From a virus, in the IMG/VR virus record IMGVR_UViG_3300030508_000013, positions 62,001-126,000 of that record: DNA of 64,000 nt; one strand, 5' to 3'. Both the position numbers and the translations under genes were made by a program. The notes below the pieces were generated by a model that worked only from the letters and a program-made list of their open reading frames with translations, was not told the DNA's origin and searched no databases. This document shows positions 32,989 to 49,700 of the stretch, piece by piece (position 1 is the stretch's first letter; every line of letters begins with the position of its first letter).

Positions 32989-33015
32989 TTATATATGTCT
33001 GAAAAAATCTGGAAT
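32989..33015 (-). promoter_or_regulatory. recurrent promoter-like motif
   Basis: Minus strand CCAGATTTTTTCAGACATATATAAC (core TTTCAGACATATATA). It lies between the stop of the repeat-protein gene and the start of the gene at 32935. Confidence 0.65.
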
Positions 33016-33028
33016 ACAACTTTTATGT

Positions 33029-33847
33029 TTATAGACTATATTTGTAGCTTTTCGTTTGCGCCAAGGTAAATCCCATTTCCTTGGCTACTTCTAAACACAT
33101 AGCTTGATTGCGAATATAACGTAGCGCGAAACTGTTTTCTGAAACAGCAGCTAAACAAATTTCTTTTGTTTGAATTTTCGCATGTCTAAAAGTATGTACG
33201 TTAGCTTCAACAGCAATAGAACACATGTTTAATGTTTGCCTATCAATGTATTCCAGTACGCTCGGTGCGTTTTCAATTGCTGTAAGACAAATCTCTTCAG
33301 TTTTATCCCTAACGTAACGGAATGAAGAGTAGTCCTTCGATAGAGCAAACATGATTAATTCTTTAGTCTGATCTTCGACATACTTCAAAGCATCTGGATT
33401 TTGATTTAAGGCTTCGTAACAAATCTTCTCAGTCTTATCCTTGACATGTTTTAGAAACAAACCATTTTGTCTAACTGCTTCCAGACATATTTCTTCTGTT
33501 TGGAATTCAGCATATAGGAAGGCGTGATAATCTGTCTGAACTGCTATAAGACAAATCTTCTCCGTTTGTGTCTCTACAAATTCAATAGCGAGATAATTTT
33601 GTCTTATTGCTTTGATGCATTGTCTTTCAGTTTGGTCGACTACAAACTCTAAAGCCAACCCATTTTGATGTAATGCCGTACTGATTATTTTTTTAGTTTT
33701 ATGTTCAACAAATTCTAAAGCTAACCCGCATTCCTTAACAGCAAGCAAACATATATCTTCTGTTTGATTTTTAATACGCTGCAATATCATTCCGTTGTTA
33801 ACAACAAGAAACATAGATTGTAAGTCGCTTACCATTTTTAAGAACAT
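33029..33847 (-). CDS. DUF4116-like tandem-repeat protein
   Basis: 272 residues made almost wholly of ~10 copies of a 23-residue helical repeat with the pattern QTE-ICL-AV-QNG-AL-+V (for example KTEKICYEALNQNPDALKYV). This resembles DUF4116 repeats found in proteins of large DNA viruses and some bacteria. Such repeats build protein-binding solenoids; the partner is unknown. Confidence 0.7.
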   Translation of the reverse strand: MFLKMVSDLQSMFLVVNNGMILQRIKNQTEDICLLAVKECGLALEFVEHKTKKIISTALHQNGLALEFVVDQTERQCIKAIRQNYLAIEFVETQTEKICLIAVQTDYHAFLYAEFQTEEICLEAVRQNGLFLKHVKDKTEKICYEALNQNPDALKYVEDQTKELIMFALSKDYSSFRYVRDKTEEICLTAIENAPSVLEYIDRQTLNMCSIAVEANVHTFRHAKIQTKEICLAAVSENSFALRYIRNQAMCLEVAKEMGFTLAQTKSYKYSL

Positions 33848-35477: not shown

Positions 35478-35500
35478 AATATATGTCTGAAATATTCTGT
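35478..35500 (-). promoter_or_regulatory. recurrent promoter-like motif
   Basis: Minus strand CAGAATATTTCAGACATATAT. It follows the terminator of the IscB remnant and precedes the GNAT gene. Confidence 0.7.
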
Positions 35501-35504
35501 GATA

Positions 35505-35532
35505 AAAAAAATAGTAACTATTAGGCTACTAA
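35505..35532 (-). terminator. rho-independent terminator after the IscB remnant
   Basis: Hairpin TAGTA...TACTA followed in minus direction by U8. A second, longer inverted repeat (ATTTCAATTTAAC / GTTAAATTGAAAT, about 35539-35592) overlaps the end of the IscB remnant. Confidence 0.65.
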
Positions 35533-35580
35533 TTTTTTTTATTTCAATTTAACGAGTATTCTCCGTGTTATGCTACTCAG

Positions 35581-36036
35581 TTAAATTGAAATAGGCAATT
35601 TACCGCTCAATATCCATGACACGATATCAACAGATAAGCAGTCTATAATCTGTCGTGTAGCGCTCACAAAACGCTCGTTGTTAGCCGCTGATTTTGCTCG
35701 TAGATATTTCAGGTAATCTGGCGTGCTATAATGTCTGGTATGTGTTACTTGTTTACCACGATGTATTAACTCTATTAAAGATAATACATTAACTATCCCG
35801 TTAATAGTACGCGATATACAAAACCCCGTCGTAATACTACCTGGATCTATTTTTACTTCTATTTCTTGTAATTGACAATCCTTTTGATCTAGATCAATTA
35901 ATTGGATTACAAAAGGTTTTACCTTTATCACACGTGCTCTACCTCTTTCGAGTAATAAACGTGCTCTTTTACCAGTACACGGCATGAGTGGTAGTTTATT
36001 CTTATCGATTACAAATACAAATGGTTTACCTGACAT
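35581..36036 (-). pseudogene. iscB: truncated IscB: PLMP domain and RuvC-I only
   Basis: 151 residues from MSGKPF at 36036 (AGAAAGATTATT upstream). FVFVIDKNKLPLMPCTGKRA and RLLLERGRARVIKVKPFVIQ form the PLMP domain, and EVKIDPGSITTGFCIS is RuvC-I with its Asp. LIELIHRGKQVTHTR begins the Arg-rich bridge helix, which then loses its RR repeats; DIVSWILSGKLPISI ends it. The HNH, RuvC-II and RuvC-III parts of a ~400-500 residue IscB are absent. The product could not cut DNA by known mechanisms but keeps part of the RNA-contacting region. An omega-RNA-like sequence precedes it. Confidence 0.8.
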
Positions 36037-36272
36037 AATAATCTTTCTGTGATTTACATCACTGGTTACATTCCCCTCGACAATGTTAAAATAGCTTTTT
36101 ACGTTATACACATTATCCCTTACTCTTAGGATTGTTTAATGTATAACGACAGAGCTACAGACTGAGGAAGCATCTGTAGGTATCATGACTAAAATAACGT
36201 AGTACAATTAAGTACTGAGTCTGGTCAACTTAATACCTTACGGTATCATCCTTTTAGGGATGGAGTAATTGA
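36037..36272 (-). ncRNA. omega-RNA (HEARO-like) upstream of the IscB remnant
   Basis: In minus direction from 36272: TCAATTACTCC, hairpin CATCC-CTAAAA-GGATG, hairpin ATACC-GTAA-GGTAT, TAAGTTGACCAGACTC, hairpin AGTAC-TTAATT-GTACT, hairpin CTACAGA...TCTGTAG, and near the IscB start GTCGAGGGGAATGTAACCAG. Position (just 5' of iscB, same strand), multiple hairpins and the closing GGGGAA...AACC block fit IscB omega-RNA. The guide would be the ~16 bases 5' of the scaffold, here the end of the preceding gene. The 78-base 5' part recurs at 42001-42078. Confidence 0.7.
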
Positions 36273-36440
36273 CAGTTCTTGAGAATCTTCAGGTGCGTAT
36301 GAAAATGCGCGTTTTTCAATAACGACTAATTTATAAATAAAATTTGTTACGTCGTCTTTATGTTTAAGTAAAAGTGCTTTTTCTTTTATTTGTTTAATAA
36401 CATCTAGTATATTGCGCCCTATTATTTTTTCATCGCTCAC
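36246..36440 (-). CDS. small protein whose 3' end runs into the omega-RNA
   Basis: 64 residues, helical (EKIIGRNILDVIKQIKEKAL). The last residues ITPSLKG and the stop are encoded by the start of the omega-RNA scaffold, suggesting the element inserted at, and replaced, the original 3' end. Not recognised. Confidence 0.5.
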   Translation of the reverse strand: MSDEKIIGRNILDVIKQIKEKALLLKHKDDVTNFIYKLVVIEKRAFSYAPEDSQELSITPSLKG

Positions 36441-36451
36441 AATTTTCTCCT

Positions 36452-37276
36452 TTATTTTAAGTCAAGTGGCACGCCTATTATTGGATCTTCTCCATGAAAT
36501 ATTACACCTACTCGGTTTACTACTTTATCGAAAATAGGCATCTCTAGTTCCAATATTCTTGATCTAGCCACTTGTAAATTTGAGTCTGTTCTTGCTTTAT
36601 GTTTCTGTGGAAGTGAATCTAATTCTTCAGTAGAAAATAAACCAGCTATAACACGGCGCTGAATAAACGTGCCGCGTTTGAATGAAGATGGAAAATCATT
36701 CCAATTGACACCTTTTGCCATCAGCATATCTTGCATCTCTGCACCTGATTTTTTGTGCAATTGAGCTTGACTATAAAAAGCACTAGCTGCCATGCTAATA
36801 CTATTTTTAGAAGCATCGCGTTCACGCCATAGGAAGTTATTTGTTGCTTCTTCTAACGTAGGGAAGTTACATGCTCTGGCGTCAAATGTAGGTAAGCGAT
36901 CAGCAAAACCTGGCATTTGTTTTAACACTTCTCTGTAAAAGAAAAGTGTGGCTTGCGCAGCAAGATGAGAAGTCATTTTAGCTACTCTTCTATCAAACCA
37001 AATTTGATTCTTTAAACTATCAGAATACCACGTCAGAGTAATTTCATCACTCTGCGTATACCCCATGATAGCATTGGTGTGGTCTACTAAATATTTAGTA
37101 GTATTAACCATAGCTCTAGTCATCCGTAAATCAAATGGGCGATCCATTCCTTTTGTAAAACGACTGAAACCACGACCATCTAATCTTGCTACGATTGGTA
37201 GTAACGGGAAGAACCTACGATCAGATTCGTAGTCTTCATACATTTTCATACGATCGCCAAGTGCGTCTAAAGACAT
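36452..37276 (-). CDS. Thg1-like 3'-5' RNA polymerase (tRNAHis guanylyltransferase family)
   Basis: 274 residues. VARLDGRGFSRFTKGMDRPFD is the first metal-binding Asp/Gly segment of Thg1, and IMGYTQSDEITLTW carries the S-D-E catalytic block. Further conserved are FDRRVAKMTSHLAA and FDARACNFP, followed by WRERDASKNSISMAASAFYS. Thg1-like proteins add nucleotides in the 3'-5' direction to tRNA 5' ends or repair truncated tRNAs. Phage copies may repair tRNAs cleaved by host anticodon or acceptor nucleases (inference). Confidence 0.85.
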   Translation of the reverse strand: MSLDALGDRMKMYEDYESDRRFFPLLPIVARLDGRGFSRFTKGMDRPFDLRMTRAMVNTTKYLVDHTNAIMGYTQSDEITLTWYSDSLKNQIWFDRRVAKMTSHLAAQATLFFYREVLKQMPGFADRLPTFDARACNFPTLEEATNNFLWRERDASKNSISMAASAFYSQAQLHKKSGAEMQDMLMAKGVNWNDFPSSFKRGTFIQRRVIAGLFSTEELDSLPQKHKARTDSNLQVARSRILELEMPIFDKVVNRVGVIFHGEDPIIGVPLDLK

Positions 37277-41898: not shown

Positions 41899-42000
41899 AG
41901 TGTTTTCCTTTACGAATTATTAAATGTTATTGTTCGCAATGATGGTATTTGTATACCCTTTCATCTCTTCTAAAATAAGATATTCTTTAATACACATACA

Positions 42001-42078
42001 TAACGTAGTATCTTTCGATACTGAGTCTGGTCAACTTAATACCTTACGGTATCATCCTTTTAGGGATGGAGTAGTTGA
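42001..42078 (-). ncRNA. orphan second copy of the omega-RNA 5' scaffold
   Basis: Nearly identical to 36195-36272: same TACTCCATCCCTAAAAGGAT, GATACCGTAAGGTATTAAGT and TGACCAGACTCAGTA. The only real difference is an eight-base block, where AGTAC/GTACT becomes AGTATC/GATACT: different bases, still a hairpin. No IscB gene follows. The 3' half of the omega-RNA is missing or different. It again begins at the 3' end of a gene. Confidence 0.7.
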
Positions 42079-42296
42079 TTAAATAAATAAGTTTGAAGAC
42101 TATCCAATTCTTCGAGCATAATGTCTTCATCAAAACAAATGGATGACAGGCTTGTAATGATGTCACCACGGCGTTTGTTTTCAGTCACCCATTCACTACC
42201 TACCTTAGCTTTGTACCATCCTTTAAACAAAGCTAAAAGAGTCGTGATGTCGCGTTGTTCGTGACTGACATATGGAGTTATAAACGGTACGCTCAT
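42060..42296 (-). CDS. hypothetical protein ending in the orphan omega-RNA
   Basis: 78 residues, helical (QRDITTLLALFKGWYKAKVG). The last codons LLHP and stop come from the scaffold's TACTCCATCCCTAA, as for the gene at 36246. Not recognised. Confidence 0.55.
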   Translation of the reverse strand: MSVPFITPYVSHEQRDITTLLALFKGWYKAKVGSEWVTENKRRGDIITSLSSICFDEDIMLEELDSLQTYLFNQLLHP

Positions 42297-49673: not shown

Positions 49674-49700
49674 TCATATATGTCTGAAATATTCTGGAAT
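49674..49700 (-). promoter_or_regulatory. recurrent promoter-like motif
   Basis: Minus strand CCAGAATATTTCAGACATATAT, the fullest match together with 35478. It sits between a strong terminator (49705-49763) and the gene starting at 49614. Confidence 0.7.

Follow-up and report, generated by a model that had tools for sequence, protein, structure and literature searches.

Rather than a new gene switch, the omega-RNA and short IscB reading frame studied here are probably the remains of an IscB/HEARO (OMEGA) mobile element that has been broken up and dispersed in a phiKZ-type jumbo phage. The window, that is the whole stretch of 64,000 nucleotides that was analysed, spans 62001-126000 in a linear and possibly incomplete virus record of 165,072 bases; positions preceded by C1 refer to the records themselves and those without a prefix to the window. 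The locus represents a known kind in a decayed state, and its anatomy is informative: the N-terminal part of IscB follows its omega-RNA and a larger C-terminal part lies at a distance in the same genome.

The reading frame at the locus runs on the minus strand for 151 residues, from an ATG at 36036 to a stop at 35581-35583. Its first 97 residues (35746-36036, minus strand) hold the PLMP domain followed by RuvC-I (KIDPGS); they end, and with them the recognisable IscB similarity, at HRGKQV, immediately ahead of the arginine-rich bridge helix. The N-terminal PLMP domain is identified by its sequence (PLMPCTGKRARLLLERGRARV), supported by profile and alignment. The Pfam profile RRXRR matches residues 7-100 (E 3.3e-23) through only positions 1-89 of its 174, and an IscB profile of 433 positions, built here from 104 IscB sequences, matches residues 7-99 through positions 1-93 (E 1.5e-32), with nothing matched in the frame past position 93. 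These matches agree with an earlier note on this DNA, which described the protein as PLMP plus RuvC-I only; from the layout of a one-frame IscB (RuvC-I, bridge helix, RuvC-II, HNH, RuvC-III, WED/TI) the frame has only RuvC-I. The N piece is 55% identical to a Pseudomonas IscB, its structure model is good only for the PLMP part (pLDDT 75-89), and a protein search of viral contigs with this piece alone returned nothing.

In place of the bridge helix and REC linker the same frame carries a 54-residue tail and the stop (35581-35745, minus strand), without significant similarity to the region it replaces and with no match to the IscB profile. The tail is coding-like in its codon usage and open for 54 codons, which shuffled tails achieve with p about 0.026; its predicted structure is not confident (pLDDT about 50). 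Reading it as a strongly eroded bridge helix was rejected, the only trace being a weak agreement (RF..TR) at corresponding positions of the nearest relatives, with a post hoc p of about 0.01. Beyond residue 97, as far as about 35300, none of the three frames takes up a further IscB motif, which excludes a simple frameshift or sequencing error and upholds the earlier observation that no complete IscB frame can be restored downstream. Three-frame and frameshift-tolerant profile alignment over the same sequence performed no better than on shuffled DNA.

When the whole record was searched with RRXRR, a second match appeared at C1:148990-149094, outside the window, and here the C-terminal piece of an IscB was found (C1:148180-149067), on the same strand as the N piece and about 50 kb away. 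The protein had been said to lose all the rest of IscB, which is true of the frame but not of the genome. In the C piece the open frame shows IERVKFD (RuvC-II), a complete HNH motif (CMYCK..) and HALDAACVG (RuvC-III) in turn and then meets an in-frame TGA, past which 83 more codons can be aligned with the WED/TI region at the end of IscB. The piece covers positions 147-427 of the 433-position profile and contains the only HNH in the record; no full-length IscB was found in the 165 kb. The two pieces are thus complementary (1-93 and 147-427), separated by a gap of 53 positions (94-146) that holds the bridge helix and REC linker, and this region is recognisable in neither piece and was not found elsewhere in the record. 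A match of the residues upstream of the C piece to an eroded GWLPPSL region was marginal (p about 0.03) and was set aside, and neither profile nor DNA comparison supports the end of the N piece and the start of the C piece as two copies of one RuvC-II stretch (TCATGG...). The catalytic residues of RuvC and HNH are all present in the genome, with the aspartate of KIDPGS in the N piece and the glutamate of IERVKFD, the HNH motif and HALDAACVG in the C piece.

No ATG in the frame of the C piece has a ribosome-binding site. The ATG that does have one, at L004:1624, lies in another frame and opens a 23-residue peptide that ends at TGATATG, and re-initiation there would yield a product without the RuvC-II glutamate. 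The in-frame TGA is the single stop in about 300 codons. Recoding of this codon was considered and rejected: no suppressor tRNA was found, and TGA terminates 14 of the 101 long reading frames of the record, as an ordinary stop does. Identity to the nearest relatives is about 60% before the TGA and 29-32% after it, the lower value being one that other pairs of IscBs also show. Both pieces show coding-like codon usage, A+T-rich as in the genes of this phage.

When the full-length IscBs of the compared loci were ranked separately for each piece, the best four were identical: L030, L031 and L032, from the Pseudomonas group (Pseudomonas sp. Ant30-3, P. rhodesiae and Stutzerimonas stutzeri), and L033 from Paracandidimonas soli. 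The N piece is 50-55% identical to them over PLMP and RuvC-I, and the C piece 59-60% identical up to the TGA (RuvC-II, HNH and RuvC-III). The shared ranking assigns both pieces to one IscB lineage, for which a single element broken in two is the simplest account. Like the studied locus, the four relatives have a HEARO RNA directly upstream; unlike it, they are single uninterrupted frames with bridge helix, REC linker, WED and TI, and they lie in G+C-richer DNA (0.57-0.64, against 0.37 here). A rearrangement within the bridge-helix and REC-linker region probably split one full element with the loss of about 53 codons, or two near-identical copies may have been truncated from opposite ends.

The same anatomy could in principle arise from an intact IscB mis-joined during assembly, given that this is a metagenomic contig of the IMG/VR type whose junctions are not confirmed by a second record. 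We consider this exceedingly improbable, since about 53 residues are absent from both sides, unlike a mis-join at a shared word, both pieces have the coding-like, A+T-rich codon usage of this phage, and the 151-residue frame ends in an ordered hairpin and terminator. It is also improbable that the N and C pieces still assemble on the omega-RNA as a functional split IscB, acting as a nuclease or as an RNA-targeting enzyme without the TAM-interacting domain. Their complementary coverage, full set of catalytic residues, common lineage and coding-like codon usage are what such an enzyme would show, and an IscB engineered to lack the TAM-interacting domain targets single-stranded RNA (PMC12991159). 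Both pieces, however, lack the bridge helix, whose arginines anchor the guide seed in IscB, and the REC linker, deletion of which abolished editing (PMC9640706). Furthermore, the C piece is interrupted by a stop and has no proper in-frame start with a ribosome-binding site. A natural split IscB of two separately encoded proteins (PLMP/RuvC-I plus RuvC-II/HNH/RuvC-III without TI) that might serve two or more omega-RNAs in trans in a jumbo phage is distinctly improbable; we know of no natural split IscB, and if both pieces did work together this would be the first known to us.

Upstream of the 151-residue frame lies omega-RNA 1 (36065-36273, minus strand), a full-length HEARO RNA of Rfam family RF02033. 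It scores 149.7 bits (gathering score 83; E 1.8e-31) across the whole model (1-211 of 211), above the curated cut-off and above the omega-RNA of each of the 12 IscB relatives that were matched together (84.8-147.6 bits). The RNA had been described as well folded with at least four hairpins, and the computed fold bears this out, with a minimum free energy of -51.6 kcal/mol, a z of -2.8 and more than four hairpins. The high score is not by itself proof of selection after the break. The intact RNA, which the earlier note put down to selection without a nuclease, is explained equally well by recency; of the two options offered in that note, a recent truncation is supported by the coding-like character of both pieces, the one stop in about 300 codons of the C piece and the uneroded RNA.

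In known omega-RNAs the guide is located directly 5' of the HEARO start (PMC9640706). By this rule, with its position taken from the start of the HEARO model, the presumed guide (5'-CCTGAAGATTCTCAAGAACT-3') occupies 36274-36293 on the minus strand and consists of the final bases of a 64-residue frame (36246-36440, minus strand) that extends into omega-RNA 1 at its 3' end. The 3' end of a gene is where the IscB element was inserted. Compared with the 165-kb record, the presumed guide gave its self-match and near-matches at chance level, and no target-like match above chance.

The other option of the earlier note was a retained RNA-binding function for the 151-residue protein, as a non-cutting regulator acting for example by guided repression. 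A precedent for phage-borne, non-cutting derivatives of RNA-guided nucleases is provided by TldR, which derives from TnpB and keeps nearly the whole protein with its catalytic residues mutated. Such RNA-guided repressors have been found in phages (PMC13418256), and the intact omega-RNA 1 together with the contacts between the PLMP domain of IscB and the terminal hairpins of its omega-RNA (PMC9640706) could be taken to favour a similar role here. Those contacts are, however, mainly sequence-independent, and the nexus and guide are held by the bridge helix, RuvC, WED and REC linker (PMC9640706), whereas bridge helix, REC linker and WED region are all missing from the studied protein. In contrast to TldR, most of the protein is missing and its remaining catalytic residue is intact; neither a near-complete effector with a dead catalytic site nor, within the record, a guide matching a promoter or operator was found. 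The tail has no confident structure. The 97-residue PLMP/RuvC-I piece could perhaps still touch the RNA, but has no evident means of presenting the guide, and guided repression is highly improbable.

The architecture is also rare. Of the 152 IscB relatives found by an alignment search, 80 viral loci were retained, comprising 73 full ones, 5 that run into a contig end and 2 short ones. A short frame beside an intact omega-RNA was thus seen in only two of the 75 assessable viral IscB frames, so that it does not represent a recurring architecture, which further weakens the case for a retained regulator. One of the two, the independently truncated IscB of L136 (in IMGVR_UViG_3300025288_000108), comprises PLMP, RuvC-I and bridge helix followed by a stop, with an intact omega-RNA of 101.6 bits; directly after it comes what reads like the start of a DnaB-type helicase. 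Reduced relatives of IscB are otherwise represented by IsrB, which has RuvC with the bridge helix and no HNH, and by IshB, which has PLMP and HNH and no RuvC. Unlike these, the piece studied here has only PLMP and RuvC-I.

A second, shortened omega-RNA (omega-RNA 2; 41927-42079, minus strand) lies 6 kb from the first and has no IscB frame. Its score of 32.7 bits (E 8e-4) is below the curated RF02033 cut-off of 83, while its first 79 nucleotides are 91% identical to omega-RNA 1 (E 3e-26) and its fold has a z of -3.1. Differences between the two RNAs within helices mostly preserve pairing (UG to CG, CG to UA), with one pair broken. Comparable HEARO RNAs over the Rfam cut-off and without an adjacent IscB occur in 4 of 37 other IscB-bearing virus records: G012 (the record of L077; C1:64521-64761 and C1:104754-104997), G027 (the record of L118; C1:131324-131548 and C1:151340-151549), G034 (C1:42757-42919) and G036 (C1:156-365). 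In every case an intact IscB is present elsewhere in the same contig, whereas in the studied record the two pieces alone were found. The sequence after the RNA is common to both solo copies of G012, which suggests that these are a short mobile, non-autonomous derivative. The best-scoring solo HEARO of all (162.6 bits) lies in L145 (G027:C1:150800-152800), with a TnpB-type-looking frame (MLKTYKFRIYPTEEQ...) about 190 bases downstream; this would be an unusual neighbourhood, with an IscB-type RNA beside a TnpB-type protein.

Omega-RNAs therefore do occur in phages without a nuclease of their own, and the locus studied here is consistent with an intermediate state. This raises the possibility that omega-RNA 1, and perhaps omega-RNA 2, are functional parts of a non-autonomous element used in trans by an intact IscB encoded elsewhere, the truncated frame being irrelevant. 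The four records with solo RNAs and intact IscB, the largely pairing-preserving changes between the two omega-RNAs, and the linear and possibly incomplete record are all consistent with such use. The absence of a full-length IscB from the 165-kb record and the low score of omega-RNA 2 argue against it, and we regard it as unlikely as the main explanation of the locus.

The frame had also been said to end at a proper terminator. Overlapping its stop codon is a strong, A+T-rich hairpin of 19 bp (35540-35593, minus strand) that is followed by A residues, and beyond it lies an A-stem-U hairpin (35504-35539, minus strand), which from its fold and sequence is a probable, bidirectional intrinsic terminator; together the two give a z of -6.2. 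The second hairpin could plausibly terminate transcription; a consensus terminator scan listed neither. A motif, ccagaatATTTCAGACATATAT, has seven occurrences with at most one mismatch, every one on the minus strand, at window positions 35479-35493, 49676-49690, 1569-1583 and 32991-33005 and record positions C1:135224, C1:135297 and C1:159920; it is a candidate for a promoter or regulatory site of the phage, and one copy stands just before a GNAT-like gene downstream of the IscB piece. Further along the same strand, at 33029-33847, is encoded a protein of 272 residues made up of about ten repeats of the type 'QTEEICLEAVRQNGLALEFVEDQT'.

The gene for Thg1, the tRNA-His guanylyltransferase, lies at 36452-37276 on the minus strand (Pfam E 7.6e-28) and is related to Thg1 of Pseudomonas phage 201phi2-1. 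The record also encodes a major head protein and a virion protein (PHROG 3231 and 3004), and from these and the Thg1 we take the virus to be a phiKZ-type jumbo phage. Four group I introns (RF00028, 52-93 bits) are found within 8 kb on the minus strand at C1:5726-13756 (L006). A search for full-length relatives in sister phages had been suggested as a check, and such phages were sought by DNA, by Thg1 and by the gene next to the C piece; no sister phage close enough to reveal an intact or empty site was found. Carriage of such elements by phages is ordinary, with over 16% of HEARO-bearing fragments in one survey classed as viral or prophage-derived (PMC9755519).

We favour decay of a single IscB element on the basis of the complementary pieces and their shared relatives, the missing bridge helix, the C piece without a proper start and its in-frame TGA. 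The solo omega-RNAs of other phages and the truncation in L136 point the same way, as does the lack of any match in the record to the Y1 transposase (TnpA, PF01797), by which the element also falls outside the IS200/IS605 type. Against decay it must be counted that long stretches of both pieces are still open and no catalytic residue has been lost, features that decay would eventually erase, that the tail of the N piece is open for 54 codons and coding-like, that the search for sister phages gave no intact or empty site by which to order and date the events, and that the drop in identity after the TGA is within the normal spread of IscB. Under decay the nuclease presumably no longer works, and the fold of the omega-RNA may have been kept by the recency of the break, by an intact IscB that serves frame-less omega-RNAs in trans, or by both. 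Such an IscB could be supplied by an unsequenced part of the phage, by a co-infecting phage or by the host, and would keep cutting empty alleles, so that the element would be retained.

The locus shows an RNA-guided nuclease element falling apart in a jumbo phage, with its guide RNA surviving longer than the protein and the break in the protein falling within the segment that grips the guide. The recurrence in phages of omega-RNAs without a nuclease, usually alongside an intact IscB, makes the use of omega-RNAs in trans a testable proposition.
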